Source: Rhizomonospora bruguierae (GTDB lineage Bacteria > Actinomycetota > Actinomycetes > Mycobacteriales > Micromonosporaceae). Taken from it: a stretch of DNA of 64,000 nucleotides. Shown piece after piece: positions 13,259 through 40,988 of the stretch. Each line of letters opens with the position of its first letter. Positions within the stretch are counted from its first letter, which is position 1. The position numbers and the translations under genes were made by a program. The notes below the pieces were generated by a model that was not told where the DNA came from, searched no databases, and saw nothing but the letters and a program-made list of their open reading frames with translations. Where the stretch lies: NCBI RefSeq assembly GCF_018397995.1, contig NZ_BBQH01000078.1, positions 89,975-153,974 on the forward strand. Reading direction: 5' to 3'.

Positions 13259-14125
13259 ATGTCCGTTGTGTCAATGGCGGCGATCGTAGGGCCCGCGCTT
13301 CAGAACCGATACGGTGTGCCGGCGATAAATGTCGTCAACGATCTGACGATGGCGGCCGTTTTGGCGGCGGCCGTCGAACGTCGCTCGCCGGTTATCGTGC
13401 AGACTTCGGTCAAGACGGTGCGGACCGCCGGCGCGGAAGTACTGATGGGAATGTGGCGGGGAATGACCCGCGGAATCGAGGTGCCGGTGGCGCTGCATCT
13501 CGACCATTGCCCCGATCGGGAGGTGATCAGCACCTGCCTCAGGCTCGGGTGGAACTCGGTGCTCTTCGACGGCTCCGCGCTGCCGGTCGAGCAGAACCGG
13601 CGGCACACCGTCGAGGTGGTCCGGGAGGCGTCGGTGTACGGGGCCAGCGTCGAGGGTGAGATCGAGGCCATCACGGGTGTGGAGGACGACCACGGTTCGG
13701 ACGAGGTCGGCGAGCAGCTGTCGCTGCGGGTCTGCCTCGATTTCATCGAGGCCACCGGGGTCGACGTGTTCGCACCCGCCATCGGCAACGCCCACGGTCG
13801 CTACCGCAGCGAGCCGACGCTCGACCGGCAACGGGTCGTCGATCTGGTCACCGCGACCGGCGTGCCGATGGCGCTGCACGGCGGGTCCGGGCTGACCGCG
13901 GCGCAGTTCAGCGAGTTGATCGCGGCCGGCTGCGCGAAGGTCAACCTGTCCACCGTGCTCAAGGAGCGCTTCATGCAGTCCTCGCTGGCCCACCTCGAGG
14001 AAGCGCGCCGGACGGACCGGTGGGACCCGCCGGACCTGTTCCGGCACGCGGCGGACACGGTCACGGCCATGGCGGCCGGGTTCATGGACGCCTTCGGCAG
14101 CACCGGCCGGGGTGCCGGGACCTGA
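13259..14125 (+). CDS. Class II (zinc) fructose-bisphosphate/tagatose-bisphosphate aldolase family
   Basis: 288 residues with GAGGGAG six bases before the ATG. Metal and substrate motifs of class II aldolases are present: ALHLDH (zinc His pair), SVEGEIE, GNAHGRY, HGGSGL and KVNLST. These enzymes split or join a ketose phosphate with dihydroxyacetone phosphate. At 288 residues it is near the GatY/KbaY size. It leads operon A, followed by DhaL, DhaK and a transaldolase-like gene, so I infer it acts on a pathway-specific keto-sugar phosphate or analogue rather than in glycolysis. Specificity cannot be read from the sequence. Confidence 0.85.
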   Translation: MSVVSMAAIVGPALQNRYGVPAINVVNDLTMAAVLAAAVERRSPVIVQTSVKTVRTAGAEVLMGMWRGMTRGIEVPVALHLDHCPDREVISTCLRLGWNSVLFDGSALPVEQNRRHTVEVVREASVYGASVEGEIEAITGVEDDHGSDEVGEQLSLRVCLDFIEATGVDVFAPAIGNAHGRYRSEPTLDRQRVVDLVTATGVPMALHGGSGLTAAQFSELIAAGCAKVNLSTVLKERFMQSSLAHLEEARRTDRWDPPDLFRHAADTVTAMAAGFMDAFGSTGRGAGT

Positions 14126-14171
14126 CCGGGCCCGCCCCGACTCCGCCCGGAACGATCAGCTAGGAGCGTTG

Positions 14172-14801
14172 ATGGCCGACACAACCGACCTGACCCGAAG
14201 CATCGTGCGGGTCATGGCGCAGACCGCGATCGACAACGAGGAGTACTTCGGCGAACTCGACTCGATCGTCGGCGACGGCGACCTCGGGTTCTCCCTCGCC
14301 CGGGGGTTCGAGGTGGTGGCGCAGGAGTTGAACACCACCGAGGACGAGGATCCGGGTGCGTTTCTGCGCCGCGTCGCCATCCTGATCACGAGCCGGACCG
14401 GCGGTACCTCGGGCCCGATCTGGGGGACCGCGTTCCTGCGGGCGGCCACGGTTGCCTCCGCCGCCGCCCGGATCGACCGCCCGACCGTCATCGCGATGCT
14501 ACGGGCGGCCATCGAGGGCATCAAGGCGCGCGGCAAGGCCGACCTCGGCGACAAGACCCTGCTGGACGCGCTCCAGCCCGGCGTGGACGAACTCGAGCGG
14601 CAGTTCACCCGGGACGCCAGCGACGTCGAGGCGATCCGGGCGACCGCCCGGGTGATGGCCCAGCAGGCGGAGGCGACGGCGACGCTCCAGGCCAGGCGCG
14701 GCCGGGCCAGCTACGCCGGCCCGCGCAGCATCGGCAGCCCCGACCCCGGGGCCATCGTGGTCGCCTACATGATGCGCGCCGTCTCCGAGTCCTGGAAGTA
14801 G
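14172..14801 (+). CDS. dhaL: Dihydroxyacetone kinase L subunit (DhaL-type, ATP/ADP-binding)
   Basis: 209 residues from ATG 14172, preceded by TAGGAG. DhaL/Dak2 features are visible: LDSIVGDGDLG (the Mg-binding aspartates, with Leu where GDGDHG is usual), GGTSGPIWG, GDKTLLDAL, and the C-terminal GRASY followed by GSPDPGA. DhaL carries the nucleotide and phosphorylates the substrate held covalently by DhaK, whose gene follows. No PTS-type DhaM is present, so ATP is the likely phosphate donor. Related actinobacterial kinases act on erythrulose and other ketoses, so dihydroxyacetone itself is not certain. The 3' end lies in a short tandem repeat (separate entry). Confidence 0.87.
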   Translation: MADTTDLTRSIVRVMAQTAIDNEEYFGELDSIVGDGDLGFSLARGFEVVAQELNTTEDEDPGAFLRRVAILITSRTGGTSGPIWGTAFLRAATVASAAARIDRPTVIAMLRAAIEGIKARGKADLGDKTLLDALQPGVDELERQFTRDASDVEAIRATARVMAQQAEATATLQARRGRASYAGPRSIGSPDPGAIVVAYMMRAVSESWK

Positions 14802-14867
14802 CTCGCCGAGCCGTGGAAGTAGCTCGCCGAGCCGTGGAAGTAGCCAGCGTCGTGGAAGAAGTAGTCC
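14793..14867 (+). repeat. 21-bp tandem repeat across the dhaL stop codon
   Basis: The unit TGGAAGTAGCTCGCCGAGCCG starts at 14793, repeats from 14814, and continues in decaying form from 14835 (TGGAAGTAGCC) and 14853 (TGGAAGAAGTAG). Each unit contains an in-frame TAG in the register of the dhaL ending WK-stop, so the gene's last codons and stop are copied about four times downstream. It looks like slippage duplication of the gene end within the dhaL-dhaK gap. Confidence 0.8.
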
Positions 14868-14904
14868 AGCCAAGCCAGCCCAGACGCGACCCTAAGGACG
14901 TCAA

Positions 14905-15900
14905 ATGAAGCGCTTCATGAACGAGCCGGCCGACTTCGTCCGCGACATGCTGGAGGGTGTCGCGCTGGCCAACCCGGACACCCTCGAGTACGTACCGGAG
15001 TTCAATCTCATCAGGCGCAAGGCCGGCCCCTCCGACGGTCGGGTCTCACTGATCCAGGGCTCCGGGTCGGGTCACGAGCCCGCGCACGCCATGCTGGTCG
15101 GGCCCGGAATGCTCGACGGGGCCTGCCCCGGCGACGTGTTCGCCGCCCCGCCCCTGGAGTACGTGCTGGGAGCCACGCGCAGCCTGCGCACGCCGGCCGG
15201 CGTCGTCTACATCGTCAACAACTACACCGGCGACCGCATGGTCTTCGAGATGGCCAGCGAGGTGGTCCGCGCCGAGGGCATCGACGTGCGGACCGTCCTG
15301 GTCGATGACGATGTCGCGGTGAAGGATTCCACCTACACGGTGGGCCGGCGCGGCATCGCCGGCAACTTCTTCGTCATCAAGGCGATGGGCGCGGCCGCCG
15401 CCGCTGGCGCGCCCATCGACGAGGTGGTCCGGATCGGTGAGGCGGTCAACGCCGCGACCCGGTCCATGGGCATGGCACTGACCTCCTGCTCGCCGCCGGC
15501 CAAGGGTGCGCCGCTGTTCGCGCTCGGAGAGTCCGAAGTGGAGCTGGGGGTCGGGATCCACGGCGAGCCGGGCCGGCAGCGCACCACGCTCTCGTCCGCC
15601 GACCAGACCGTCGAGGTGCTCCTCGGCGCCATCCTGGCCGAGCACGACGTCAACCGGGGCGACGAGGTCGCGGTGATGGTCAACGGCCTCGGCGCGACGC
15701 CGATCAACGAGCTGTACATCCTCTACGGCAGCGCCCACAAGCAGCTTCGGGAGCGCGGGATCCAGGTGCGCCGCAACTACGTCGGCGACTACTGCACCTC
15801 GCTGGACATGGCCGGGGTCTCGATCACCGTGGTGAAGCTCACCGACGAGATCGAGCGGCTGCTGTCGGAGCCGGCCCAGATCCCCATTCGCGTGTTCTGA
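14905..15900 (+). CDS. dhaK: Dihydroxyacetone kinase K subunit (DhaK-type, substrate-binding)
   Basis: 331 residues. DhaK motifs are intact: GSGSGHEPAHA near residue 50, NYTGDRMVFEMA, and GVGIHGEPG near residue 218, which holds the His that forms a hemiaminal with the ketone. With DhaL it phosphorylates a short ketose. The two subunits are separate genes in the order L then K, with about 100 bases between. The aldolase upstream and transaldolase-like gene downstream suggest that a triose or tetrose released by the pathway is phosphorylated here. It could equally be an erythrulose-type kinase; the fold call is solid, the substrate is not. Confidence 0.9.
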   Translation: MKRFMNEPADFVRDMLEGVALANPDTLEYVPEFNLIRRKAGPSDGRVSLIQGSGSGHEPAHAMLVGPGMLDGACPGDVFAAPPLEYVLGATRSLRTPAGVVYIVNNYTGDRMVFEMASEVVRAEGIDVRTVLVDDDVAVKDSTYTVGRRGIAGNFFVIKAMGAAAAAGAPIDEVVRIGEAVNAATRSMGMALTSCSPPAKGAPLFALGESEVELGVGIHGEPGRQRTTLSSADQTVEVLLGAILAEHDVNRGDEVAVMVNGLGATPINELYILYGSAHKQLRERGIQVRRNYVGDYCTSLDMAGVSITVVKLTDEIERLLSEPAQIPIRVF

Positions 15901-15934
15901 AGGGGTCGGGAAGGTTCGAGTCGGGGAGTTCCGC

Positions 15935-17224
15935 ATGCGCGCTGATCCGGTGCGGCTTGCCGCCGTGCCTGCCGTCCGGCGAGGAGACGAGGCGTACGTC
16001 GCCCGCGTCGACCTCGCGTCGACCGACCTGCGGTCGGCCACTGGCATCGAGGTGACCGACCGGTTCCGGGAGGTCATCAACGCCTTCGCGGTGCCGCCGG
16101 GCCGTACGCCGCCGGGGTTCCGGGTGGAGACCACCGTCAACCCGGACGGGGTGCTGAGCGTCGACCTGGTTCGGGACCTGTCGCGGGACGCGGACAACGC
16201 GCTGCGGCCCACCCCGTTCCTGTTCTCGGTCGACTCCGCCAACCCGGACGACATCGAGCCGTGCGTGCCGTTCGTGGCGAACCTGACCTGCAACCCCGGC
16301 ATCGTCTACGACCTGTTCCTGAACAACCCCAGGGCCAACCGGGACCGCAGGTTCGCCTCGTTCGACGAGGTGCTGGTGGAGATTTGCCGGCTACTGGGCC
16401 CGGGCTGCGACATCTCGGTGGAGCTGCACGACCCGTTCGGCAAGGACCTCGACGAGATCCTCGACGAGGTTCGGCACTACGAATCGATCACCGGCCGGCA
16501 CCGGTTGGTGGTGAAGGTCCCGCACACCGGCCCGGTGGACCGGGGCAACGTGTCCCGGCTGCTCGACGGGCCGGGGCTGCTGGAGCGCCGGTACGACGGC
16601 GGCAGCATCGCGGGCCAGCTGCGCGGGCACCGCCTCGCCCTGGAACTGCGGAACCGCGGCTACCGGGTGAACTTCACCCTGATGTTCGAGCCCTACCAGA
16701 CCGCGCTCGCGCTACAGGCCCGTCCGTACTTCATCAACGCCTTCATCCGGAACCGGCTCGGCGCCAGCCGGGTCATGCACGGCCTGATCGCCGCCTACGA
16801 GGCGACCGACGAGATCCTGTTCGTCGAGCAGCTGCGCGACTACCTGGTGGACAACGACTACCTGGGCCTGAACGACCGCTCGATGGACCTGTTGCGGGTG
16901 CTGGACCAGGCCCGCACGCACCTGCACAATCGGGGCTGGTCGGGTCGCGGCGACGACGGCCTCGACCACGCGCGCGCCGCCCTGCGGTGGCTGTCCACCA
17001 GCAATCTGCCGGACACCCGGCTGATTCTGTGCTCGATGGACGGCGACCGCATGTTCCCCGACATCATGCGAATGCTCACCGAGCGGGAGTTCCTCGACCT
17101 GCACAACCGGGTCCTGCTCACCACCGATCCCGCCTATTTGGCGCGCTGGGCGAGCAGCCCTCAGGTGGTCAGCTATCAACGCCGGTTCACCAGAGCGGTA
17201 CGCGAGCCCGCGCCTGCGTCGTGA
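15935..17224 (+). CDS. Transaldolase-like (beta/alpha)8 barrel protein
   Basis: 429 residues, longer than a standard transaldolase (about 320-390). The core resembles transaldolase: FVANLTCNPGIVYD, the lysine strand RLVVKVPHTGPV (candidate Schiff-base Lys) and the strand VNFTLMFEPYQTALA, which matches the 'NVTLIFS..Q' strand. The N-terminal about 110 residues have no match I recognise. It closes operon A. I infer aldol chemistry or transfer of a dihydroxyacetone unit within this pathway, but the sequence is divergent and a fructose-6-phosphate-aldolase-like or wholly new reaction is possible. Its end is followed at once by shared promoter copy B. Confidence 0.6.
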   Translation: MRADPVRLAAVPAVRRGDEAYVARVDLASTDLRSATGIEVTDRFREVINAFAVPPGRTPPGFRVETTVNPDGVLSVDLVRDLSRDADNALRPTPFLFSVDSANPDDIEPCVPFVANLTCNPGIVYDLFLNNPRANRDRRFASFDEVLVEICRLLGPGCDISVELHDPFGKDLDEILDEVRHYESITGRHRLVVKVPHTGPVDRGNVSRLLDGPGLLERRYDGGSIAGQLRGHRLALELRNRGYRVNFTLMFEPYQTALALQARPYFINAFIRNRLGASRVMHGLIAAYEATDEILFVEQLRDYLVDNDYLGLNDRSMDLLRVLDQARTHLHNRGWSGRGDDGLDHARAALRWLSTSNLPDTRLILCSMDGDRMFPDIMRMLTEREFLDLHNRVLLTTDPAYLARWASSPQVVSYQRRFTRAVREPAPAS

Positions 17225-17227
17225 TGG

Positions 17228-17295
17228 TAGGGAAACCCCTCGTCCAACGGTGGGGGGTTTTCCCGATTTCGGCGGGGTGCCGGCCTCGATAGTGT
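17228..17295 (+). promoter_or_regulatory. Shared promoter element, copy B (ALDH/TPP/enamidase-like operon)
   Basis: TAGGGAAACCCC, then GGGGGGTTTTCCCGAT ending at 17267, then 22 bases and a TAGTGT -10 box (17290-17295). It aligns with copies A and C over its whole length. Transcription would begin near 17302, leaving an untranslated leader of about 80 bases before the ALDH ATG. Confidence 0.75.
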
Positions 17296-17381: not shown

Positions 17382-18923
17382 ATGCTGGATCGCAACATTA
17401 TTCCGATGTACATCGACGGTCGGGACGTCACGGGGACCGGACCGGTGCGGGCCCGGGAGAACCCGGCGCGGACCGACGAGCGGGTGGGAGCGGTCTCCTG
17501 CGCCACCCCGGAGGAGACCCGCGGCGCGGTGGGTGCGGCGGCGGCCGCCGCGCGGGCATGGGCCGGCACCGCCCTCCCGGAGCGGGTGCGAACGGTGCTC
17601 GCGGCCTGGGAGTTCCCGGCGCAGGAGCGGGACGCGCTCGCCCGGACCCTCACCGGCGAGCTGGGCAAGACGCAGCCGGACACCCGTGGCGAGCTGAACT
17701 ACGGCATCGCGTACGCCGAGTACTGCGCCCGGCAGGCACCCGCGGTCCTGGCCGACGACGTCACCACCGACGAGGTGGGCACGATCCGGGTGAAGCAGGT
17801 CCCGTACGGCGTGGTGGCCGCGATCATTCCCTGGAACGCGCCGCTGAACATCTCCTCGACGGTCGTCGCGCCCGCGCTGATCGCCGGGAACACCGTCGTG
17901 GTCAAGCCGTCGCCGCTGGCTCCGCTCGCGGTCACCGGCTACCTGCGGGCCATCGCGCGCCGGCTGCCGCCCGGCGTGCTGAACGTGGTCAACGGCGATG
18001 TCGAGGTCGGCGAGGCGCTGACCACCGACCCGCGGCTGGGCAAGATCGCGTTCACCGGTTCCACCGGCGTGGGTCGTTCGATCCTGCGCAGCGCGGCCGA
18101 GGCGATCACGCCGAGCCTGCTGGAGTTGGGCGGCAACGACGCGGCGCTCATCCTGCCGGACGTCGAGTTGACCGACGACGTGGTGGCTCGCCTGGTGTTC
18201 GGCAGCTTCCTCACCGCCGGGCAGATCTGCATGGCGATCAAACGGCTCTACGTCCACGAGTCGCTGCTCGCCCGGCTCGTCGAGCGGTACCGGGAGGTCG
18301 CGGCCAAGGTCCTGGTCATGGGCGACCCGTTCGACCCGTCGGTGACCCTCGGGCCGATGGTCAGTGACCGGCAGCGGTCGCTGGTTCGCGCGATGGTCGA
18401 CGGGGCGGCCGCCGAGGGTGCCGAGGTGATCGAGGTCGGCTCCGTGCAGCCCGGCTTCGACCTGGGCGGCGGCTACTACCTGCGGCCGACCCTGGTGCTC
18501 AACGCCGGCAGGGACAGCACCATCGTTCGGGAGGAGCAGTTCGGGCCCACCGTTCCGATCCTGCCCTTCTCCGACGTCGACGACGGTATCCGGGCCGTCA
18601 ACGACAGCGACTACGGCCTGTGCGCCTCGGTCTGGACGGCCGACCCCGGTCGCGCGTTCGACCTGGGGCCCCGGCTGGAGGTCGGCACCGTCTTCGTCAA
18701 CACGCACAACCGCAGCGGCATGGCGCTCCGCGCGCCGTTCGGCGGCCGGAAGCTGAGCGGGTACGGCCGGGAGTACGGGGTCGCCGGGCTGCTCGAGTTC
18801 TGCCAGTCGCAGAGCATCAACCACCTCGCCGCCACCGAGCGGCGATCGGACCTCAACGCCGGCCGGCAGTACCAGAGCCCGCCCGATCCGGCCAGGGCAT
18901 CGACCACGGGAGCGCATCGTTGA
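17382..18923 (+). CDS. NAD(P)-dependent aldehyde dehydrogenase
   Basis: 513 residues from ATG 17382; ATG 17406 is a weaker alternative. Motifs in order: PWNAPLNISSTVVAPALIAGNTVVVKPS-type cofactor loop, FTGSTGVGRSI, LELGGNDAALI (catalytic Glu region) and GQICMAIKR with the nucleophilic Cys. It oxidises an aldehyde to an acid. It is first in operon B under shared promoter B, and its stop overlaps the TTG start of the TPP enzyme gene. The aldehyde is presumably an intermediate of the pathway encoded here. For comparison, the enamidase product in nicotinate fermentation is a formyl-diacid, so an acid-semialdehyde substrate is a reasonable guess, not a demonstrated one. Confidence 0.85.
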   Translation: MLDRNIIPMYIDGRDVTGTGPVRARENPARTDERVGAVSCATPEETRGAVGAAAAAARAWAGTALPERVRTVLAAWEFPAQERDALARTLTGELGKTQPDTRGELNYGIAYAEYCARQAPAVLADDVTTDEVGTIRVKQVPYGVVAAIIPWNAPLNISSTVVAPALIAGNTVVVKPSPLAPLAVTGYLRAIARRLPPGVLNVVNGDVEVGEALTTDPRLGKIAFTGSTGVGRSILRSAAEAITPSLLELGGNDAALILPDVELTDDVVARLVFGSFLTAGQICMAIKRLYVHESLLARLVERYREVAAKVLVMGDPFDPSVTLGPMVSDRQRSLVRAMVDGAAAEGAEVIEVGSVQPGFDLGGGYYLRPTLVLNAGRDSTIVREEQFGPTVPILPFSDVDDGIRAVNDSDYGLCASVWTADPGRAFDLGPRLEVGTVFVNTHNRSGMALRAPFGGRKLSGYGREYGVAGLLEFCQSQSINHLAATERRSDLNAGRQYQSPPDPARASTTGAHR

Positions 18924-20686
18924 GCGAGCAGCGCGTCTGCGACGAGATGTCGGACGCCTTCGTGCGAGGCGGCACCGAGGTTCTGTTCACCCTGTTCGGC
19001 GACGGCAACCTGGCCTTCGTCGCCGCCCTCGCCGCGCAACCCGGGATGCGCGTCGTCCACTCCCGGCACGAGGCGGCCGCGGTCTTCATGGCGGCCGGCT
19101 ACGCGCGGGCGACCGGCCGGGTCGGCGTCGTGTCGGTGACCGCCGGGCCCGGCCTGGCCCACACGATGACCCCGCTGGTCTCGGCCGCCCGCGCCGAGGT
19201 GCCGATGGTGATCTATGCCGGCGACACCGGCACCTCCGGCCGGTTCGTCGGCGGGCTCCAGGACCTCGACCAGGAGGCGTTCGCCCGCGCGGCCGGCGTC
19301 CCGTACCTGCGGGTGGACCGGACGAACGCCGGGCGGACCGCGGCGGCGGCGTTCGAGCTGGCCACCCGCCGCAGCTGCCCGGTTCTCGTCGGGGTGCCCG
19401 AGGACCTGATGGAGCTGCCGGTGCTGCCCAGCGACGCGAGCGCCCCGGCCCCGCCGCCAGCCCCGGCCGCGCAGCCGGCCCCGGTGTCGGAGCCGGCCCT
19501 GGTGTCGGAGCCGGCCCTGGTGTCGGAGCCGGCGGCCGGTGCCGCGGCCACCGGGTCGCGCGAGGAGCACGTGGCGGCTGCCGCACGGGTCGAGGAGGCG
19601 TTGCGAACGGCCCACTCTCCGCTGCTGGTCATCGGCTCCGGCGGCGCGGACCCGGCCACCGTATCCGCCGTGCGGGAGCTGGCCCGGCGCTACGGCGCCC
19701 GGGTAGGGACCACGTTTCGCGCCAGGGGTGTCGTGGACGACGACCCGGCGACCGTGGGGATCGTCGGCCCGCTGGCGCACGCCGCCCACCAGGCCGCGCA
19801 GGAGCGGGCGGACCTCGTGGTCGGGTTCGGCGCCAACCTGCACGGCTTCGGCGCGTTCCTCGACGTCCTGTACGACGCGCGGACGATCTGCGTCGGGGCG
19901 GAGCGGTACGGCCGCTGGACCGCCCCGCACCCGGCCGGCTGCGGCCTGGACGTTTCGCCGTCCGACATCCTGCCGCTGCTGCGCGACGCCCCGGCACCGG
20001 CGGGCGGGCGCCGGGCCGAGGCGAGCGTGGACCGCAAGGCCGTCATCGAGGCGGACTTCACCGAGCTGCCGGAGGCGCACGACGAGGGGCTGCTGGACCC
20101 GCGCCGGCTCATCCTGGAGCTGGACGCGCTGATCGCCGAGGACGCGATCGTCGTCATCGGCGGCGGGCACTTCTGGTCCTTCCCCCTGATGTACCTGTCG
20201 AAGAAGCGCCGGGACTTCGTCTTCCCGATCGAGTTCGGCAGCATCGGGATGGCGCTGCCGACCGGCATCGGCGTCGCGGCCAGCGGTACCGGCCGGGACG
20301 TCGTGGTCATCGAGGGCGACGGCGGTGTCACGGCCAGCATCCAGGAGTTCGAGACGGCCGTGCGCAGCGGCCTGGACCTGACCGTCGTGGTGATGAACGA
20401 CGGTGCGCTCGGCGCGGAGTTGCACAAGCTGAAGGCCAAGGGGCTCGCGCCGGACGAGTCGTACTACGAGTTCGTCGACTTCGCGGGCGTCGCCGGCACG
20501 TTCGGGGCGCGGTCCGCCCGGCTCACCGCGGTCGGCGAGATCGCGCCCGCCCTCGACGGCGGCCGTGCCGGGGTGACGGTGCTGGACGCGCGGCTGACGC
20601 GGACCGTGACGAGCCGCTGGTACCGGCGCCTCTACCTCGGTCAGATCGGCCGCCTCGCCGCCGGCCGGCACCCGGCCGGGGCGTGA
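18920..20686 (+). CDS. Thiamine-diphosphate-dependent enzyme, acetolactate-synthase/decarboxylase family
   Basis: 588 residues from a TTG that overlaps the upstream stop, with GGGAG at suitable distance; ATG 18947 is a fallback. The N-terminal PYR domain has the catalytic Glu in HSRHEAAAVFMAAGYAR, then a central domain. The C-terminal PP domain has GDGGVTASIQEFETA and MNDGALGAELHKLK, the GDG...N Mg-thiamine-diphosphate motif. A Pro/Ala linker at residues about 174-215 contains repeats of EPALVS, built by tandem DNA repeats, not found in most relatives. The chemistry would be 2-keto acid decarboxylation, carboligation or C-C hydrolysis as in IolD. Which one is not clear from sequence. Confidence 0.82.
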   Translation: MSEQRVCDEMSDAFVRGGTEVLFTLFGDGNLAFVAALAAQPGMRVVHSRHEAAAVFMAAGYARATGRVGVVSVTAGPGLAHTMTPLVSAARAEVPMVIYAGDTGTSGRFVGGLQDLDQEAFARAAGVPYLRVDRTNAGRTAAAAFELATRRSCPVLVGVPEDLMELPVLPSDASAPAPPPAPAAQPAPVSEPALVSEPALVSEPAAGAAATGSREEHVAAAARVEEALRTAHSPLLVIGSGGADPATVSAVRELARRYGARVGTTFRARGVVDDDPATVGIVGPLAHAAHQAAQERADLVVGFGANLHGFGAFLDVLYDARTICVGAERYGRWTAPHPAGCGLDVSPSDILPLLRDAPAPAGGRRAEASVDRKAVIEADFTELPEAHDEGLLDPRRLILELDALIAEDAIVVIGGGHFWSFPLMYLSKKRRDFVFPIEFGSIGMALPTGIGVAASGTGRDVVVIEGDGGVTASIQEFETAVRSGLDLTVVVMNDGALGAELHKLKAKGLAPDESYYEFVDFAGVAGTFGARSARLTAVGEIAPALDGGRAGVTVLDARLTRTVTSRWYRRLYLGQIGRLAAGRHPAGA

Positions 20687-20727
20687 GTTCGGTGGCCACC
20701 GTGTCCGGATCGAGCGATGGAGGTCAG

Positions 20728-21681: not shown

Positions 21682-21722
21682 ACCCGACGGGCGGGCGCCA
21701 ACGGCACGGAGAGGAGCTGGTT

Positions 21723-23693: not shown

Positions 23694-23759
23694 TAGGGAG
23701 ATTCCCCATTCGAGTGGGGTGGTTTTCCCGATCTGCCAAGCGTTCGCCTTCGGTAGTTT
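23694..23759 (+). promoter_or_regulatory. Shared promoter element, copy C (importer/monooxygenase operon)
   Basis: TAGGGAGATTCCCC, then GGGGTGGTTTTCCCGAT ending at 23732, then 21 bases and a TAGTTT -10 box (23754-23759). It matches copies A and B. Seven bases after the -10 lies ATG 23767, the geometry of a leaderless start. Confidence 0.75.
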
Positions 23760-23766
23760 CGAGCGC

Positions 23767-23901
23767 ATGAACCTGCGCGAATGCGTTGGCCGGAGACCCG
23801 CCGGCGGGGGTGTTCGCCGCCCCGATACCCACCGCCCCGGGCGGCCGGCCCGGTGCCGCTCGGCGAGCGCGAGCCGGCTCACCGGACGGGGGCCGCGATG
23901 A
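23767..23901 (+). CDS. Possible leaderless leader ORF before the HAD gene
   Basis: 44 codons from an ATG placed exactly seven bases after the TAGTTT -10 of promoter C. It ends in a TGA that overlaps the HAD-phosphatase ATG (ATGA at 23898-23901). The product is Arg/Pro-rich with no recognisable domain. Position argues for translation of a leaderless message and coupling to the downstream gene; composition gives no support, and it may be simply untranslated leader. Confidence 0.35.
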   Translation: MNLRECVGRRPAGGGVRRPDTHRPGRPARCRSASASRLTGRGPR

Positions 23902-24701
23902 CCGCGACAGGCGCGCCGCGCGTGCTGATCTTCGACTGCGACGGGGTCCTGGCGGACACCGAGTTCGACGGCCACCTGCCGGCGTTCAACGCGACGTTCG
24001 CGGAGTTCGGCGTCCCGCTGCGGTGGTCCCGGCAGACGTACCGGGAGTTGCTGCGCATCGGCGGCGGCAAGGAGCGGCTGCGCTCCGTGTTCACGCCGCA
24101 GTTCGTCGCCGAGGCCGGCCTGCCGGCGGACGACGAGGGCCAGCGCACCGTCGTCGCGGCTTGGCACCGGCGCAAGTCCGAGCTGTTCCGGCAGCTCGTC
24201 CTGGCCCGGCAGATCCCCGCGCGGCCCGGCGTATACCGGATCGTCAGCGACGCCGTGCGGGCCGGGTGGACGCTGGCGGTCGCCTCGACGTCCGCCGAGG
24301 CGTCGGTGCGGGCGGTGCTGGAATCGGTCGTCGGATCGGACAACGTCCGGCACTTCAAGGTCTACGCCGGCGATGTCGTACCGCGCAAGAAGCCGGCACC
24401 CGACATCTACCAACTCGCGGTGCGCGACCTCGCCGTGGACCCGGCCGACGTCCTGGTCATCGAGGACACCCCGAACGGCCTGCGGGCCGCGCTGGCGGCC
24501 GGCCTGCGCTGCCTCGTCACCGCGGGCGACGACGCCGCCGACGGCGAGGCGTTCGAGGGCGCGGCACTGGCCGTGACCAGCCTGGGGGACCCGGACGGCG
24601 AGCGGGTACGGGTCATCCGCAACCGAAGCTCGGTCACGCCGCGCGGCTGGTTGGAACTCGGCGATCTCGCAGCGTTGATAGGAGGCCACGGTGATGAGTG
24701 A
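23898..24701 (+). CDS. HAD-superfamily hydrolase, CbbY/beta-phosphoglucomutase-like
   Basis: 267 residues from ATG 23898. Motif I FDCDGVLADTE at about residue 12 has the two catalytic aspartates; motif II is VASTSAE; motif III is the lysine in PRKKPAPDIY; and motif IV is IEDTPNG. A helical cap sits between motifs I and II, as in subclass I. These enzymes remove or move phosphate on small sugar phosphates or glycolate-type compounds. Being first (after a possible leader ORF) in operon C, it may dephosphorylate an intermediate made by the DhaKL/aldolase branch. The substrate is unknown. Confidence 0.85.
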   Translation: MTATGAPRVLIFDCDGVLADTEFDGHLPAFNATFAEFGVPLRWSRQTYRELLRIGGGKERLRSVFTPQFVAEAGLPADDEGQRTVVAAWHRRKSELFRQLVLARQIPARPGVYRIVSDAVRAGWTLAVASTSAEASVRAVLESVVGSDNVRHFKVYAGDVVPRKKPAPDIYQLAVRDLAVDPADVLVIEDTPNGLRAALAAGLRCLVTAGDDAADGEAFEGAALAVTSLGDPDGERVRVIRNRSSVTPRGWLELGDLAALIGGHGDE

Positions 24702-25335
24702 CGGCGCCCGGGTCCCGGGATCCCACCGGCTGATCGTGGAGCTGACCGCCCCGCCGGAGGGACGGGTCGGTGCGTTCAACGAGTGGTACGACCGGCAGGT
24801 CATGCCGCGCCGGCGCGTGCTGGACGGCGTGGCGAGCGCCCGGCGCTACCGCGAGGCCGGAAACGACACCGGCTGGCTGGCGGTGTACGGGGTGACCGGC
24901 GAGGGCGTCCTGCCGGAGCCGCCCGGGACGCTGCCCGAGCGGGAGGTCGAGATGCGGGCGGCCCTGGCCCGCCTGGAGACCCGGCAGTACGCCGAACTGG
25001 CGATCGAGCAGCGGTACCGCCGGGACCTCCCGGAGACCGGATACCTGCTCGCCGTGTGGTGGACGCCCGCCGCCGACACGCTGCGTGACTTCCACGCCTG
25101 GTACGACGAGGAGCACATCCCGCTGCTGCTCGACGTGCCGGGCTGGCTGGCGATCCGCCGGTACGAGCTGGTCGCCGGCACCGGTCCGCGATTCCTCGCC
25201 CTGCACTACCTGGAGAGCCCGGCCGTGCTGGCCGAGCCGAACCACCGACGCGCGGTGACCACGCCCTGGCGGGCCCGGGTCGCGCTCCACCGGGAGCAGC
25301 ACGAACGGCGCATGTTCGAGGTCTGGAACCAATGA
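24694..25335 (+). CDS. Tandem EthD-like (dimeric alpha/beta barrel) protein
   Basis: 213 residues from ATG 24694, with GGAGG eight bases upstream and an overlap with the HAD gene; GTG 24691 is possible. Two ferredoxin-like repeats are visible, each with a WYD motif: FNEWYDRQVMP near residue 28 and FHAWYDEEHIPLLLDVPGW near residue 130. Proteins of this type (EthD/DUF4286-like) accompany ring-cleavage and monooxygenase pathways and often have no assigned reaction; some are isomerases or cyclases. Its stop overlaps ATG 25332. An auxiliary enzyme acting on an oxygenated ring product is a reasonable guess. Confidence 0.65.
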   Translation: MSDGARVPGSHRLIVELTAPPEGRVGAFNEWYDRQVMPRRRVLDGVASARRYREAGNDTGWLAVYGVTGEGVLPEPPGTLPEREVEMRAALARLETRQYAELAIEQRYRRDLPETGYLLAVWWTPAADTLRDFHAWYDEEHIPLLLDVPGWLAIRRYELVAGTGPRFLALHYLESPAVLAEPNHRRAVTTPWRARVALHREQHERRMFEVWNQ

Positions 25336-25355
25336 ATCGTCTGGAAAGGCACACC

Positions 25356-26417
25356 ATGCGAAGAAGAAGCGCCCTCATCGGGGTGTCCGGGGTCGCCCTG
25401 GCGCTCGTGCTCGCCGCCTGCGGCGGGGGCGACGGCTCCGGTAAGGACTCCGGCGGCCTCACCACCGTGCGGTACGGCTCGGTCGGCGGCATGACCGACG
25501 GCCCGCTGTACCTCGCCGAGGAACTCGGGTACTTCAAGGACGCCGGCATCAAGGTCGAGCGGACCCGGTTCGAGTCGGGCACCCAGATCCTGGCGGCGAT
25601 GGTGGGCGGCAGCCTGGACGTCGCCGCGGTGGCCGTGTCCGCGGGCCTGCTGAACGCCATCGACGGCTCCGACAAGTTCAAGTTCGTCGCGGACCGGCAG
25701 AGCCAGCAGGGCCCGCGGCGCTTCGGCGAGGGCTTCCTGGCCAGCCCGCGGATCCTCGACGGGGTCGCGCTGGACGACCCGAAGGCCCTCGGGCAGGCGC
25801 TGAAGGGCAAGAAGGTCGCCATCACCGGCAAGTCCACCTCGACGGAGTTCATGGTGGGCGAGCTGATGAAGAGCTACGGGATCGACAACTCCCAGGTGGA
25901 CCTGGTGGTCCTGCCGTTCGGGAGCATGGCGGCCGCCCTCAAGAGCGGTGCGATCGACGCGGGCATCGTCCTGGAACCGTTCATGTCGCAGATCCTCAAC
26001 GCCAAGACGGGCGTGATGATCTCGCACCTGGACGGCGTGATCAGCAGCGGTACCCAGGTGCCGGTCACCTACAGCAAGGCATTCGCCTCCGGCGACCGCC
26101 AGGTGGCCGAGGGCTTCATGACGGCGTTCCTGCACGGGGCGCAGGTGATGAACGACGCGCTCGGCGCCAAGGGTACCGACCGCGAGAAGGTCATCGACAT
26201 CATCGCCAAGTACTCCGACCTGCCGGCGGACGTGATCGCGCAGTCGGATCCGCCGGGCATCGCCCCGCAGGCCCCGCTCGACATCTCCTACATGGCGGAC
26301 TTCCAGGAGTTCCTGCTGGCCCAGGGCGTCATGAAGAAGAAGGTCGACATCGCCTCGGCGGTGGACGACTCGTTCGCGGCGGCCGCCCGCAAGGAGCTGG
26401 GGATCGGGGCGCAGTGA
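25356..26417 (+). CDS. Substrate-binding lipoprotein, NitT/TauT (NMT1/THI5-like) importer
   Basis: 353 residues from ATG 25356, which has GGAAAGG at proper spacing and gives a clean lipoprotein signal (twin Arg-rich start, hydrophobic core, LAAC with Cys22). An upstream ATG at 25332 overlapping the previous stop would add eight residues. The body has the type II binding-protein look: GMTDGPLYLAEELGYFKDAGI, KGKKVAITGKSTSTE and ALKSGAIDAGIVLEP. Relatives bind sulfonates, nitrate, thiamine pyrimidines or aromatic acids. With the next two genes it forms a complete importer and presumably brings in the compound degraded by this locus. Confidence 0.87.
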   Translation: MRRRSALIGVSGVALALVLAACGGGDGSGKDSGGLTTVRYGSVGGMTDGPLYLAEELGYFKDAGIKVERTRFESGTQILAAMVGGSLDVAAVAVSAGLLNAIDGSDKFKFVADRQSQQGPRRFGEGFLASPRILDGVALDDPKALGQALKGKKVAITGKSTSTEFMVGELMKSYGIDNSQVDLVVLPFGSMAAALKSGAIDAGIVLEPFMSQILNAKTGVMISHLDGVISSGTQVPVTYSKAFASGDRQVAEGFMTAFLHGAQVMNDALGAKGTDREKVIDIIAKYSDLPADVIAQSDPPGIAPQAPLDISYMADFQEFLLAQGVMKKKVDIASAVDDSFAAAARKELGIGAQ

Positions 26418-27265
26418 CCACGGCACACGAGACGGCGGTGCCCGGCAACGGTGCCGGGCGCCGCCCACCCGAGGCGGAGGTCGCCGTCGCGGTCGACCGG
26501 ATCTCGAAGGTGTTCCTGCCCAAGAACAACGTCCCGGTGCCGGCGATGGTGGACGTGTCCCTGCGCATCCGCCGCAAGGAGGTGCTCGCCATCCTGGGGC
26601 CTAGCGGCTGCGGGAAGAGCACCCTGCTGCGGATCCTCGGCGGCCTGGACACCCAGTACCGCGGCACGGTGACGTGGGCGCAGGCGCGGCAGGAGCACGG
26701 CCGGCTCAACGCGGCCACGGTCTTCCAGCAGGATTCCACCCTGCCGTGGATGACGGTGGCCCAGAACATCGGCCTGGGACTGTCCGGGCTCAGGCTCGAC
26801 GCCGCCGAGCGGAAGGAGCGGATCGACCGCTACTCGGCACTGGTCGGGCTGGCCGCCTTCCGGTCCGCCTACCCGCACGAGCTGTCCGGCGGCATGAAGC
26901 AGCGCGCCGCCATCGCCCGCGCGTTGGCCTGCGAGCCGCGGGTCCTGCTGATGGACGAGCCGCTCGCGGCGCTCGACGCGCAGACGCGCCTGGTCATGCA
27001 GGCCGAGTTGCAGGCGCTGTGGCGCCGCACCGAGTCCACGGTTGTCTACGTCACGCACGACATCGAGGAGGCGATCACCCTCGCCGACCGGATCGTCGTG
27101 ATGAGCGCGCGCCCCGGCCGGATCAAGTCGGAGCGGCGGACCGACATCCACCTCGACGGCGCGGACGGCGCGGATCCGGTGGCGCTGCGCGCGCACCCCG
27201 GGTTCGCGCCGCTGGCGCGCGACCTGTGGGCGGATCTGGCCCAAGAAGTCGGCGACGCTCTGTAG
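26414..27265 (+). CDS. ABC transporter ATP-binding protein (NitT/TauT type)
   Basis: 283 residues from a GTG overlapping the binding-protein stop. Walker A GPSGCGKST lies near residue 62, Q-loop FQQDSTLPW, signature LSGGMKQRAAIARA, Walker B VLLMDEPLAALD and H-loop VTHDIEEAI. These place it with SsuB/TauB/NrtD ATPases. The operon order (binding protein, ATPase, permease) and tight spacing make the assignment of partners clear. Confidence 0.9.
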   Translation: MTTAHETAVPGNGAGRRPPEAEVAVAVDRISKVFLPKNNVPVPAMVDVSLRIRRKEVLAILGPSGCGKSTLLRILGGLDTQYRGTVTWAQARQEHGRLNAATVFQQDSTLPWMTVAQNIGLGLSGLRLDAAERKERIDRYSALVGLAAFRSAYPHELSGGMKQRAAIARALACEPRVLLMDEPLAALDAQTRLVMQAELQALWRRTESTVVYVTHDIEEAITLADRIVVMSARPGRIKSERRTDIHLDGADGADPVALRAHPGFAPLARDLWADLAQEVGDAL

Positions 27266-27278
27266 ACAAGGGAACGAG

Positions 27279-28142
27279 ATGAGCAGCGCAGTGACCGAGA
27301 TCAAGACCGCGCCCGCGGGCGTCGAGCCCACCGTCGATCCGAACGTCGTCCGGGCGGCCATCGCCCTGCGCCGCCGGACGATGGCCAAGCGCATCGTGAT
27401 GGGCGTGTTCACCCCCATCTTCTTCCTGGCCATCTGGGAAGTGCTGAGCCGGGTCGGGGTGCTCGACCGGGAGTACATACCGCCGCCCTCCGAGGTCTTC
27501 CGGGGCATGGGCGCGGGCATCAAGGACGGCTCGCTGACCGAGGCCGTCGCGCACAACGGTTGGATCTCGATCCAGCGGTTGGTTCCGGGGTTCGCCCTCG
27601 GCCTGGTCGTCGGCCTGGTGGCGGGCATCGCCATGGGTATCCTGGACCTGGTCAGGTTCGGGCTCCGGCCGATCATCTCGGCGACCTTCCCGATCCCGAA
27701 GATCGCGATCTTCCCGATCCTGATCATCATCTTCGGGATCGGCGACACCAGCAAGATCGTCGTGGTCGCGCTCGCCGTCTTCTACATGGTCTGCATCAAC
27801 ACCGCGAGCGGGATCGAGTACAGCAACCGCATCTACCGGGAGGTGGCGACCGCCTTCCAGGTACCGAAGCGGGTGGAGTACCTGCGCGTCATCATCCCGT
27901 CGGCGCTGCCGTCGATCATGACGGGCGTGCGGCTGGGCGTGGGCAACGCGCTCATCGTGCTGGTCTCGGCCGAGTTCGTCTCGGCGCAGGCCGGCATCGG
28001 CTACTACATCTGGAACGCGTGGCAGGTGCTGGACATCAACGCCATGTTCGGCGGCCTGATCGTCATCGCCCTGTTCGGCATCCTGACGAACTGGTGCCTG
28101 CTGGCGCTGGAGCGGAGGTTGATCCCGTGGTCGCAGAGCTGA
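27279..28142 (+). CDS. ABC transporter permease (NitT/TauT type)
   Basis: 287 residues with GGAACGAG before the ATG. Around six membrane helices are visible. The family signature region reads ALPSIMTGVRLGVGNALIVLVSAEF followed by GIGYYIWNAWQVLD, close to SsuC/TauC. It completes the importer with the two preceding genes. Its stop lies 52 bases before the FAD monooxygenase start, so import and the oxygenase step are co-expressed from promoter C. Confidence 0.9.
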   Translation: MSSAVTEIKTAPAGVEPTVDPNVVRAAIALRRRTMAKRIVMGVFTPIFFLAIWEVLSRVGVLDREYIPPPSEVFRGMGAGIKDGSLTEAVAHNGWISIQRLVPGFALGLVVGLVAGIAMGILDLVRFGLRPIISATFPIPKIAIFPILIIIFGIGDTSKIVVVALAVFYMVCINTASGIEYSNRIYREVATAFQVPKRVEYLRVIIPSALPSIMTGVRLGVGNALIVLVSAEFVSAQAGIGYYIWNAWQVLDINAMFGGLIVIALFGILTNWCLLALERRLIPWSQS

Positions 28143-28193
28143 TCGGATCGCCGCCACCCGGTGTTGCGGTGTTCGCGAAGGGAGGTGGCGCCG

Positions 28194-29375
28194 GTGCCTG
28201 ACAACCGCTCCTCCCACGCACCGCGCATCGCGATCGTCGGGGCCGGCATCGGCGGGCTGTGCCTGGCCGCGTGCCTGCGCCGGATCGGAGTCCGGGCCGA
28301 CGTCTTCGAGCAGGCCCCCCGGTTCGCCCGGATCGGGGCGGGCATCATGCTCGCGCCCAACGCGGTGAACATCCTCAACGCGATCGGGGTGCGCGAGCAC
28401 CTGGAGCCGACCTCGGTGACGCTGACGACGCTGCAGAACCGGGCGTGGGACTCGGGCGAGCCGATGTTCGACCTGGAACTGGGCGCCGCCGCCGAGCAGC
28501 GGTACGGCGCGCCGTTCCTGCTGGCGCACCGCGGCGACCTGCACGCGGCCCTGCTGCGGGTCGTGCCGCCGGAGGCGATCCACCCGGGGCGGGAACTGGT
28601 CGGCATCTGTCCGCTCGACGACCGCGTCGAACTCCGGTTCGCCGATGGGTCGGCGGGCAGCTTCGACGCGGTGATCGGCGCCGACGGGGTGCACTCGGTG
28701 GTCCGGCGCAGCCTGTTCACCACGTCGCCACCCAGCTTCACCGGCCGGATCGCGTACCGGGCCGTGTTCGACAGCGCCCTGCTGGCGGACCGTGGCCTGG
28801 CCCCCGAGGTCGGCCCGTCCACCAAGTGGTGGGGGCCCGACCGGCACATCGTGATCTATTACGTGAGCGGGGGAGCGGAGGTCTACTTCACCACGTCGGT
28901 CCCGGACGACACGTGGACCACCGAGTCGTGGTCGGCCGAGGGGTCCATGGACGAGTTGCGCGCGGAGTTCGAGGGCTTCCACCCGCAGGTGCAGGCGGTC
29001 CTGGCCGCCTGCCCCAGGGTGAACAAGTGGGCGCTGTACGACCGCGACCCGTTGCCCGGCTGGAGCACCGGCCGGGTGGCGCTCCTCGGCGACGCCGCCC
29101 ATCCGATGACGCCCTTCATGGCCCAGGGCGCGGCCACCTCGATGGAGGACGCCGCGGTGCTCAGCCGCTGCCTGGGCGAGGCCGGACCGGAGAACTTCGC
29201 GACCGCGTTCGCCTGGTACGAGTCGGTCCGCCAGCAACGCACGGCGCGGATTCAGGCGATCTCCCGGTCGAACACCTGGCTGCGCGAGCGGACGGACCCG
29301 TCCGAGGTGTACGGCTACGACGCCTGGAGCGTGCCGTTCGGGGACTCGGCCGGTCTGGAGTCCTCGCTGACATGA
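28194..29375 (+). CDS. FAD-dependent monooxygenase, 6-hydroxynicotinate 3-monooxygenase (NicC)-like
   Basis: 393 residues from GTG 28194, chosen for GGAGGTG six bases upstream. Flavin motifs: IVGAGIGGLCLAACLRR (dinucleotide fold), DAVIGADGVHS and the GDAAHPM motif. Long similarity to remembered NicC is visible: TKWWGPDRHIVIYYVSGG, PQVQAVLAACPRVNKW, RDPLPGWSTGRVALLGDA and EVYGYDAW. Positions that in NicC hold an active-site His and Cys read GAGIMLAPN and VGPSTKWW here, and HPMTPFMAQG has Phe where NicC has His. It therefore probably hydroxylates (possibly with decarboxylation) a related ring acid rather than 6-hydroxynicotinate itself. Salicylate-hydroxylase-like activity is the main alternative. 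Confidence 0.8.
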   Translation: MPDNRSSHAPRIAIVGAGIGGLCLAACLRRIGVRADVFEQAPRFARIGAGIMLAPNAVNILNAIGVREHLEPTSVTLTTLQNRAWDSGEPMFDLELGAAAEQRYGAPFLLAHRGDLHAALLRVVPPEAIHPGRELVGICPLDDRVELRFADGSAGSFDAVIGADGVHSVVRRSLFTTSPPSFTGRIAYRAVFDSALLADRGLAPEVGPSTKWWGPDRHIVIYYVSGGAEVYFTTSVPDDTWTTESWSAEGSMDELRAEFEGFHPQVQAVLAACPRVNKWALYDRDPLPGWSTGRVALLGDAAHPMTPFMAQGAATSMEDAAVLSRCLGEAGPENFATAFAWYESVRQQRTARIQAISRSNTWLRERTDPSEVYGYDAWSVPFGDSAGLESSLT

Positions 29376-30826
29376 CGGAACCGACGCCGCTGTGGGTCGC
29401 CGGCGGCCCGGCGCACGGTGCGGTGCCGCTGCCGGTGACCCACCCGTACGACGACCGGCCGGTGGGCGGCACGACGTACGCCACCGAGGAACAGACCGAG
29501 CGGGCGGTCGCCGCGGCGCACGGCGTGCGCCACCGGGCGGCGGCGCTGCCGGTTCACGTGCGCGCGGACGCGCTGGCCGACATCAGCCGTACCCTCGGCG
29601 AGCGGGCCGAGCCGCTCGCCCGGCTGGTCACGGGCGAGAGCGGCAAGCCGCTGCGGTGGGCCCGTGCCGAGGTGGCCCGCGCGGTGTCGGTGTTCCGGTT
29701 CGCGGCGGAGGCCGTGCGCGCCGGGTCGGACGAGGTGACGCGGCTGGACGCCAGCAAGGACGACGAGGGCCGCCTGGCCTACGTGCGGCGGGTTCCCAAG
29801 GGCCCCGTGCTGGCCATCACCCCGTTCAACTTCCCGCTGAACCTGGTCGCGCACAAGGTGGCGCCGGCGATCGCGGTCGGCGCGCCGGTCGTGGTCAAGC
29901 CGGCGCCCCGGACGCCCCTGTCGGCGCTGGCGCTCGGCGGGATCATCGCCGAGGTCGCCGCCGAGGTCGGGCTGCCCCCGGAGCTGGCGAGCGTCGTCTG
30001 CGTCCCCGACGAGCGGCTGCCCGCGCTGGTGGCCGACGAGCGGCTGCCCGTCGTGTCGTTCACCGGCTCCGAGCCGGTCGGCCGGGCCATCGCCGCCGCC
30101 GTGCCGCACAAGCACGTCGTGCTGGAACTGGGCGGCAACGCCGCCGCGTACGTCAGCGCCGACTACCGCCGCCCCGGCGACCTGGAGTTCGCCGCCGGGC
30201 GCATCGCCACGTACGCCACCTACCAGGCCGGCCAGTCCTGCGTCAGCGTCCAGCGGGTGTACGCCGACGCGGAGGTGTACGAGGACCTCACGGCGCGGCT
30301 CGTGGCCGCCGTCGGGGCGCTGCGCACCGGTGACCCGTACGACGAAGGGACCGAGGTCGGCCCGCTGATCGACCGGGCGGCGGCCGGGCGGGTCCACGAG
30401 TGGGTCGAGGAGGCCGTGGCCGCCGGGGCCCGGCTCCTGACCGGCGGCGTCCGGGACGGCGCGACGTACGCCCCGACGGTGCTGGCGGACGTGCCGCCCC
30501 GCGCCAGGGTGGTGTGCGCGGAGGTCTTCGGGCCGGTGCTGGTCCTGCACCGGGTCGCCGGTGCCGACGAGGCCCTGCGCCTGATCAACGACTCGAGGTA
30601 CGGCCTGCAGGCGGGCGTGTTCACCCACGACATCCAGTTGGCCTTCCGGGCCCACCGCGAACTCGAGGTCGGTGGCGTGATCGTCGGTGACGTCCCCTCC
30701 TACCGGGCCGACCAGATGCCCTACGGCGGCGTCAAGTCCTCCGGCGTCGGCCGCGAGGGAGTCCGCTACGCCATGGCCGACTACACCTACGAACGGGTCC
30801 TGGTGCTCACGGGACTGGATCTCTAG
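29372..30826 (+). CDS. Aldehyde dehydrogenase (second of the catabolic locus)
   Basis: 484 residues from the ATG that overlaps the monooxygenase stop (ATGA). Motifs: TPFNFPLNLVAHKVAPAIAVGAPVVVKP-type loop, FTGSEPVGRAI, LELGGNAAAYV and GQSCVSVQR with the nucleophilic Cys. The C-terminal MPYGGVKSSGVGREG is usual for succinate-semialdehyde and phosphonoacetaldehyde type enzymes. It is the last gene of operon C. Its 3' end overlaps the convergent FadR-type gene by 20 bases. The substrate is probably an aldehyde made by the monooxygenase branch; it is distinct from the ALDH of operon B. Confidence 0.87.
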   Translation: MTEPTPLWVAGGPAHGAVPLPVTHPYDDRPVGGTTYATEEQTERAVAAAHGVRHRAAALPVHVRADALADISRTLGERAEPLARLVTGESGKPLRWARAEVARAVSVFRFAAEAVRAGSDEVTRLDASKDDEGRLAYVRRVPKGPVLAITPFNFPLNLVAHKVAPAIAVGAPVVVKPAPRTPLSALALGGIIAEVAAEVGLPPELASVVCVPDERLPALVADERLPVVSFTGSEPVGRAIAAAVPHKHVVLELGGNAAAYVSADYRRPGDLEFAAGRIATYATYQAGQSCVSVQRVYADAEVYEDLTARLVAAVGALRTGDPYDEGTEVGPLIDRAAAGRVHEWVEEAVAAGARLLTGGVRDGATYAPTVLADVPPRARVVCAEVFGPVLVLHRVAGADEALRLINDSRYGLQAGVFTHDIQLAFRAHRELEVGGVIVGDVPSYRADQMPYGGVKSSGVGREGVRYAMADYTYERVLVLTGLDL

Positions 30827-40987: not shown

Positions 40988-40988
40988 G

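Follow-up and report, generated by a model that had tools for sequence, protein, structure and literature searches.

A candidate catabolic regulon of Rhizomonospora bruguierae combining enamidase-family, NicC-like and dihydroxyacetone-module genes

Introduction

The gene cluster considered here occupies positions 13259-30826 of a 64,000-nucleotide stretch (the window) of Rhizomonospora bruguierae contig NZ_BBQH01000078.1 (positions 89,975 to 153,974), and the described systems closest to it include those for the breakdown of nicotinate and trigonelline. The reductive nicotinate clusters share with it a DUF1185 neighbour and an amidohydrolase family, that of the Eubacterium barkeri enamidase (PDB 2vun), but the window enzyme falls outside the set of enamidases linked to 6-hydroxynicotinate reductase, and we found no match to that reductase in the R. 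bruguierae genome. The window's monooxygenase finds its best PDB match in NicC of Pseudomonas putida, with which it has two substrate-binding residues in common, yet most other pocket residues are replaced and the cluster has no NicX-, NicD- or NicF-type neighbour. In the trigonelline (Tgn) pathway of Acinetobacter baylyi an oxygenase acts first and enamide hydrolysis follows, although its oxygenase and hydrolase differ from those of the window and it has no sugar module. A passage of PMC7913881 includes succinic semialdehyde oxidation in that pathway and calls TgnF homologous to a DUF1185 protein, a family also present in the window.

The clusters of Agrobacterium vitis pAt and Mariluticola have, like the window, DUF1185, enamidase, DUF4286, a flavin adenine dinucleotide (FAD) monooxygenase and a transporter, and Mariluticola also has a succinic semialdehyde dehydrogenase (SSADH); their monooxygenase is of another subfamily, however, and they have neither a dihydroxyacetone (DHA) module nor a DHDPS (DapA) fold protein of the window's type. 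DHA modules in the order FBA-CbbY-DhaL-DhaK occur on Cryobacterium plasmid pA10BH1 and in Rubrobacter, without adjoining enamidase-type genes; the plasmid adds transketolase and aquaporin, while Rubrobacter has transaldolase (TAL). The xylulose-monophosphate (DHA) cycle of methylotrophic yeasts uses the same kinds of DHA kinase, aldolase, bisphosphatase and transaldolase, its phosphatase being fructose bisphosphatase, where the window has a CbbY-type enzyme. A transketolase-type DHA synthase, as in that cycle, is not among the Pfam calls of our cluster; the rest of the genome was not searched for one.

All called genes of the cluster are plus-strand genes, separated by small gaps or slightly overlapping, and stand in three units: a class II ketose-bisphosphate aldolase (FBA), DhaL, DhaK and TAL; aldehyde dehydrogenase 1 (ALDH1), a thiamine diphosphate (ThDP) enzyme, the DHDPS-fold protein, DUF1185 and enamidase; and CbbY, a DUF4286-like protein, the substrate-binding protein (SBP), ATPase and permease of an importer, the FAD monooxygenase and ALDH2. 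Pfam and PDB matching found every gene that an earlier annotation from sequence alone (the original prediction) had named here. We tentatively propose that one regulon imports an N-heterocyclic acid, hydroxylates it, hydrolyses an enamide and assimilates the carbon via DHA; both substrate and reactions are read from sequence, and we consider the proposal slightly more apt to fail than to hold. The parts are of known kinds in a new combination, likely encoding an undescribed breakdown pathway; searches of the open-licence literature returned no match to the set, in agreement with the original claim that no described pathway has it. If the more specific version of the proposal given below is true, heterocycle breakdown and DHA assimilation would be coupled in one pathway for the first time, which would give functions to DUF1185, DUF4286 and a DapA family with asparagine for lysine, three orphan families that the cluster brings together.

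Results and Discussion

A common element precedes the three units

Comparing six upstream regions, we found an element of about 40 bp ahead of the three units, consisting of TAGGG, then 25, 24 or 23 bases, then GTTTTCCCGAT. By eye, every copy contains two GGG(G)...CCC(C) dyads. When the gap may be 20-28, the window has three matches to the pattern and 100 shuffles have none. The R. bruguierae genome (G000, a 6.7-Mb draft, 98% complete, the window being part of its contig C78) contains three matches to TAGGGN{20,28}GTTTTCCCG, all 5' of these units, against none for the reversed control; when the second half is shortened to TTTTCCC a fourth match appears, on another contig and between genes that gene calling makes convergent. 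The strict pattern is present in 7 of 150 genomes of the family, our own included, but the six others hold seven matches between them, about as many as the six of the reversed control, and none of the seven shows both dyads by eye. It is important to note that these genome counts test restriction rather than discovery, given that the pattern was made from its own sites.

The element would imply joint control of all three units (sugar, enamidase and importer), which likely form one catabolic regulon. The three operons of the original prediction correspond to the units with one element copy each, and its view that they belong together fits well with three of three strict genome matches lying at this cluster. 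Confinement to the cluster also makes the element a handle, since a compound that induces the units would be the substrate or something close to it. The likely switch is the protein encoded at 11093-13159, in which GAF, HATPase and LuxR-type DNA-binding domains are fused in one chain with no receiver domain in Pfam; from its position alone it is a putative binder of the element. The GntR gene at 30807-31724 was also considered as a regulator and set aside, the FadR-type pattern TNGTNNNACNA being no commoner than chance (7 vs 4.27). Predictions of sigma-70 promoters and terminators did not rise above those in shuffles.

The enamidase belongs to an oxygenase-accompanied branch

The amidohydrolase has the E. 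barkeri enamidase as its best PDB match (5.9e-97, residues 5-386 on 6-386), and its HxH pair, His191, His219 and Asp276, presumed functional residues, are invariant in all nine aligned rows. At 1e-60, 14 of the 396 genomes of the phylum have such an enzyme, our own included. Relatives were sampled from plasmids (25 records, nine of them fetched) and from a genome scan (the best 80 of at least 382 confirmed), and neighbours were tested by tblastn in 91 enamidase-bearing loci, the window and the long-branched L105 included. Because the query alignment resembled the window, the sizes of the sets should not be read as frequencies; flanks were cut at 10-12 kb or by the end of a contig, and a neighbour not seen may lie beyond.

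A midpoint-rooted tree of 92 rows has two sets, with L105 outside both. One, of 26 rows (support 98/92, with a long-branch warning inside it), takes in the E. barkeri enzyme together with every one of the 18 loci that carry 6-hydroxynicotinate reductase. The window enzyme belongs to the other, of 65 rows (92/95), where Homoserinimonas, Streptosporangium, Conexibacter and Rhodococcus loci join it in a five-row clade (100/100). The neighbours differ likewise. In the fetched flanks, the reductase stands beside 18 of 25 enamidases of the reductase-linked set and none of 65 of the window's set, whereas a Rieske or FAD monooxygenase accompanies 0/25 and 20/65, respectively (counted from tblastn hits at 1e-8 with a small number of query proteins, those of L043, L053 and L074 being weak). 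DUF4286 shows the same direction (0/25 vs 11/65), and DUF1185 is common to both (18/25 vs 48/65, or 66 of 91 loci overall); the window is among the positives for the oxygenase, DUF4286 and DUF1185. That enamidase-DUF1185 clusters elsewhere have oxygenases too speaks for the original prediction. The window enamidase is an oxygenase-accompanied sister of the known enamidase, and by the tree its original assignment to anaerobic nicotinate fermentation is not supported. Annotating oxygenase-accompanied enamidase genes in that way is likely wrong.

These data bear directly on the possibility that the cluster encodes the reductive pathway by which fermenters break down nicotinate, and which Sulfitobacter also has. 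While the enamidase family and DUF1185 are common to those clusters, the window enzyme lies outside their set, and a 6-hydroxynicotinate reductase query gave no match in the R. bruguierae genome, an empty answer that calls for a positive control, though tblastn does find the same protein in two loci of the phylum (L128 and L129). We regard this pathway as hardly credible here.

The most informative relative of the enamidase is in a locus of the same phylum (L121), where an enamidase (64%) and DUF1185 (59%) occur with an FAD monooxygenase, DUF4286, a ThDP enzyme, a molybdenum hydroxylase and a UbiD decarboxylase. In the Mariluticola cluster the aldehyde dehydrogenase passes the SSADH cut-off (TIGR01780, 673.8 vs 646.35), which suggests succinic semialdehyde as an end product there. 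We also considered a Rieske-type reading: ten enamidase loci have a Rieske dioxygenase and nine of these a DapA-fold protein as well, while no Rieske protein is among the window's Pfam calls. In the five of the nine that were aligned (L008, L011, L020, L055, L083) the DapA-fold protein has kept its lysine and shares 15-19% identity with the window's, and is thus a different enzyme. Two further loci are worth recording. In L105 (9633-13987, genome G072 of the same family) an enamidase-like gene, an aldehyde dehydrogenase and a ThDP enzyme are adjacent, and an enamidase locus of SAR116 (L036) has DhaK (45%) and DhaL (35%) nearby.

The monooxygenase resembles NicC but differs in its pocket

NicC is the best PDB match of the FAD monooxygenase (5.3e-102, 344.9 bits); tropone monooxygenase (264.3), vanillate 1-hydroxylase (222.6) and salicylate hydroxylase are among those that follow. 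According to a passage of PMC9304392, His211 and Tyr215 of NicC bind 6-hydroxynicotinate, and six further pocket residues are named there. The window enzyme retains His211 and Tyr215, as do all 120 rows listed, the window included, of 6706 above threshold. As read from an alignment, it keeps one of the six others, Thr228, the remainder being changed (His47 to Met, Cys202 to Ser, Met213 to Val, Val227 to Thr, Gly229 to Ser). Met at the place of His47 is rare among the listed rows (6/120), where Gln prevails (114/120). The original description as NicC-like fits the best match and the two binding residues; with one of the six other pocket residues kept, and none in the HxnX discussed below, the enzyme may or may not be a NicC.

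Among the other 90 enamidase loci no NicC-type enzyme was found: 89 have matches at most 29% identical and L105 has none, and the monooxygenases of L009, L012 and L121 are of another subfamily. The pairing of a NicC-type monooxygenase with an enamidase thus appears, so far, only in this window.

There are two alternative substrates to weigh against the N-heterocyclic acid proposed above. The first is nicotinate itself, in a rearranged aerobic route in which NicC yields 2,5-dihydroxypyridine from 6-hydroxynicotinate and unlinked genes complete the pathway. The match to NicC and the constancy of His211 and Tyr215 favour it, as does fungal HxnX: the same passage of PMC9304392 gives this Aspergillus enzyme none of the six other residues, and yet the reaction assigned to it, on the strength of mutants and metabolites, is that of NicC. 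On the other hand, five of the six are replaced in the window enzyme, and enamidase, DhaKL, FBA and TAL have no place in such a route. Nor do the cluster's Pfam calls include another nic-type gene, NicX, NicD, NicE, NicF and nicotinate dehydrogenase not having been searched for outside the cluster. We consider it quite improbable. The second alternative is an N-free aromatic acid, attacked by a decarboxylative hydroxylase of the salicylate or vanillate type, with the amidohydrolase in some other hydrolytic role. In its favour are the next PDB matches named above, but tropone monooxygenase and vanillate 1-hydroxylase score below NicC, and the presumed functional residues of the enamidase are invariant. 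We think this alternative improbable.

The dihydroxyacetone genes form a portable module

Counterparts of the sugar genes were found in three other places. In Rubrobacter (G512) the order is GntR, TAL (59%), FBA (52%), HAD (54%), DhaL (49%) and DhaK (63%). On Cryobacterium pA10BH1, FBA (41%), CbbY (57%), DhaL (46%) and DhaK (65%) are followed by aquaporin, a heme-binding protein, TpiA, RpiB, transketolase halves and GntR. On Shinella H4-D48 p1, the neighbours of FBA and CbbY are a sugar ABC importer, a glycerol-3-phosphate dehydrogenase and a kinase. FBA-CbbY is a portable core, with DhaL-DhaK in two of the three, and the comparison defines a portable FBA-CbbY-DhaL-DhaK module. The plasmid-borne module with split transketolase (L134, 14992-23821) adjoins a Tn3 transposase.

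Both subunits of DHA kinase, DhaK and DhaL, are present in the window cluster. Its HAD phosphatase, correctly recognised in the original prediction, can be refined to CbbY-like, with matches over most of the chain to Arabidopsis 4uav (residues 3-231, 3.7e-57) and Rhodobacter 4uar (4-213, 3.9e-41). A passage of PMC10212915 describes xylulose-1,5-bisphosphate as the aldol product of dihydroxyacetone phosphate (DHAP) and glycolaldehyde phosphate, and CbbY as the enzyme that dephosphorylates it. The predicted transaldolase is borne out by its fold, but the protein is divergent (Pfam 39.1 bits vs a cut-off of 27) and has no sequence match in the PDB. Its AlphaFold model (pLDDT 84.3) has 1vpx as nearest Foldseek match (4.8e-9, ∼17% identity) and the TIM-barrel fold, making the protein a distant transaldolase; the lysine of its VKVP motif, K194, is invariant in 21/21 rows, window included, and from that motif is the probable catalytic residue. 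TAL was found in no plasmid, in 1 of 296 genomes of the class (our own), in 2 of 396 of the phylum (our own and Rubrobacter) and, within the class to which Rubrobacter belongs, in 1 of 39. At and just past the end of DhaL (14795-14865) are 21-bp direct repeats, GAAGTAGCTCGCCGAGCCGTG twice and then a partial copy.

The module would send DHA to the pentose phosphate pathway. The original prediction had the carbon leaving as triose or tetrose phosphate, but DHA assimilation is favoured, because the FBA-CbbY-DhaL-DhaK core stands alone elsewhere. The same independence raises the possibility that two unrelated modules, one for DHA and one for an N-heterocycle or aromatic compound, are neighbours by accident or have no more than a general regulator in common. 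No match to the enamidase, DUF1185 or the monooxygenase was found in the fetched Rubrobacter and pA10BH1 stretches that carry the core, and of the 90 other enamidase loci none has FBA or TAL, one has DhaK (L036) and one a CbbY-type HAD (L028). Against this, the strict element pattern precedes all three units and occurs nowhere else, and CbbY, which in Rubrobacter and Cryobacterium is grouped with FBA-DhaL-DhaK (54-57% identity), here heads the importer unit. The location of CbbY, with the element before both places, argues that the sugar and ring modules are functionally joined. We think two unrelated modules unlikely, though this explanation carries appreciable weight.

Three orphan families

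The DHDPS-fold family comprises 89 proteins at 1e-20, the window's included, of which 75 (again with the window) have Asn at the Schiff-base position and one has Lys; a 40%-identical relative in the same phylum also has Asn. The lysine-less DapA-fold protein of the original prediction is thus confirmed, and the window protein is found in 2 of 396 phylum genomes, our own included. The DUF4286-like protein is so named through its relatives, five of which reach the Pfam cut-off, its own Pfam match being only to EthD, below cut-off. Its predicted structure (pLDDT 76.9, from five sequences) has two ferredoxin-like repeats, and Foldseek places an anthrone oxidase-like protein and two putative monooxygenases at the top, with the PenE monooxygenase ninth. 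That it might open the ring is a guess from this model.

A proposed route and what weighs against it

Under the regulon proposal, the NitT/TauT-type importer would take up an N-heterocyclic acid, and the NicC-like flavoenzyme would hydroxylate it, possibly with loss of CO2. A ring-opening step would follow, for which the DUF4286-like protein is a possible agent, its predicted fold being nearest to those of the anthrone oxidase-like protein and a monooxygenase. The enamidase would then cleave the C-N bond of the enamide, DUF1185 assisting at the amine or aldehyde stage. A 2-oxo acid would be decarboxylated by the ThDP enzyme and aldehydes oxidised by the two ALDHs. DhaKL would phosphorylate DHA, FBA would join DHAP to a phosphorylated aldehyde, CbbY would remove a phosphate, and transaldolase would pass the ketose phosphate to the pentose-phosphate pool. 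In a more specific version, the heterocycle would bear or release a C2-C3 carbonyl fragment, the ThDP enzyme and the lysine-less DapA-fold protein would make DHA, and DhaKL, FBA, CbbY and the divergent TAL would form a xylulose-bisphosphate shunt into the pentose-phosphate pool, all under a single regulator; we think this rather unlikely.

Several observations count against the proposal. The whole set was found in no second genome: the sugar module recurs without adjoining enamidase genes and the enamidase without the sugar module, and of the 91 enamidase loci the window alone has FBA and TAL alongside. Joint conservation of the three operons, which the original prediction had named as its own test, is thus not borne out. 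No chemistry is known to link a pyridine-type ring to DHA, and the cluster's Pfam calls include no ring-cleavage dioxygenase. The ALDH and ThDP assignments lie under the curated cut-offs listed, and neither window ALDH passes an SSADH-type cut-off. DUF1185 is not specific, since it is in 384 plasmid records vs 25 for the enamidase. Finally, the genome is a draft in 182 contigs, and the element pattern derives from the very sites, three in number, that it matches.

Features of the cluster and its surroundings

Table 1. Positions of the genes and element copies discussed (window coordinates)
Feature	Position	Strand	Basis and remarks
GAF-HATPase-LuxR regulator, candidate element binder	11093..13159	+	Pfam domains; binding role from position
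cis element copy 1	13160..13200	+	58 bp 5' of FBA; heads FBA-DhaL-DhaK-TAL
Class II ketose-bisphosphate aldolase (FBA-like)	13259..14125	+	PF01116 3.8e-73; under every NCBIfam cut-off listed
DhaL	14112..14801	+	TIGR02365 178 bits, exceeding cut-off 138.3; Pfam Dak2
DhaK	14905..15900	+	TIGR02363 401.8 bits, slightly below cut-off 406.25; PF02733 2.4e-120; Pfam Dak1
Divergent transaldolase (TAL)	15935..17224	+	Pfam 39.1 bits; VKVP lysine K194; Foldseek fold
cis element copy 2	17228..17267	+	5' of ALDH1; heads ALDH1-ThDP-DHDPS fold-DUF1185-enamidase
Aldehyde dehydrogenase 1 (ALDH1)	17382..18923	+	PF00171 5.6e-129; start inferred, listed open reading frame begins 17250
ThDP-dependent enzyme, acetolactate synthase/2-oxoacid decarboxylase type	18896..20686	+	start approximate
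DHDPS-fold protein, Asn instead of Schiff-base lysine	20683..21681	+	Pfam and family alignment
DUF1185 / AA_synth protein, family of TgnF	21675..22316	+	PF06684 6.8e-59; start approximate (corrected, near 21675)
Enamidase-family amidohydrolase, oxygenase-linked clade	22313..23488	+	2vun 5.9e-97 and tree; start corrected to 22313
cis element copy 3	23694..23732	+	5' of CbbY; heads CbbY-DUF4286-importer-monooxygenase-ALDH2
CbbY-type HAD phosphatase	23898..24701	+	4uav 3.7e-57; 54-57% to Rubrobacter/Cryobacterium module genes; start inferred
DUF4286-like protein, predicted tandem ferredoxin-like repeats	24691..25335	+	relatives' Pfam calls, predicted structure
NMT1/SsuA-type substrate-binding protein (SBP)	25332..26417	+	PF13379 1.8e-20
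ABC ATPase, NitT/TauT type	26414..27265	+	Pfam/NCBIfam profiles
ABC permease, NitT/TauT type	27279..28142	+	Pfam/NCBIfam profiles
FAD monooxygenase, NicC-like (FAD_binding_3)	28161..29375	+	best PDB match NicC; start may be internal
Aldehyde dehydrogenase 2 (ALDH2)	29372..30826	+	PF00171 2.5e-128; start approximate

Upstream of the regulator, 1445-11082 encodes a CbiQ-type transporter protein, an ABC permease and ATPase, and CorA and MgtC proteins. The GntR gene at 30807-31724 is divergent from a separate sugar cluster at 31951-45645, which comprises a GHL6-type hydrolase, an alcohol dehydrogenase, an aldo-keto reductase, an Amidohydro_2 protein, an altronate/galactarate-type dehydratase, ABC permeases, RbsD/FucU and a further alcohol dehydrogenase, and which we take to resemble the oxidative L-fucose route. 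Further downstream are a GH11 xylanase with CBM2 (49381-50526) and a heme peroxidase-family protein with two matched stretches (55915-58116), presumably catalase-peroxidase-like.

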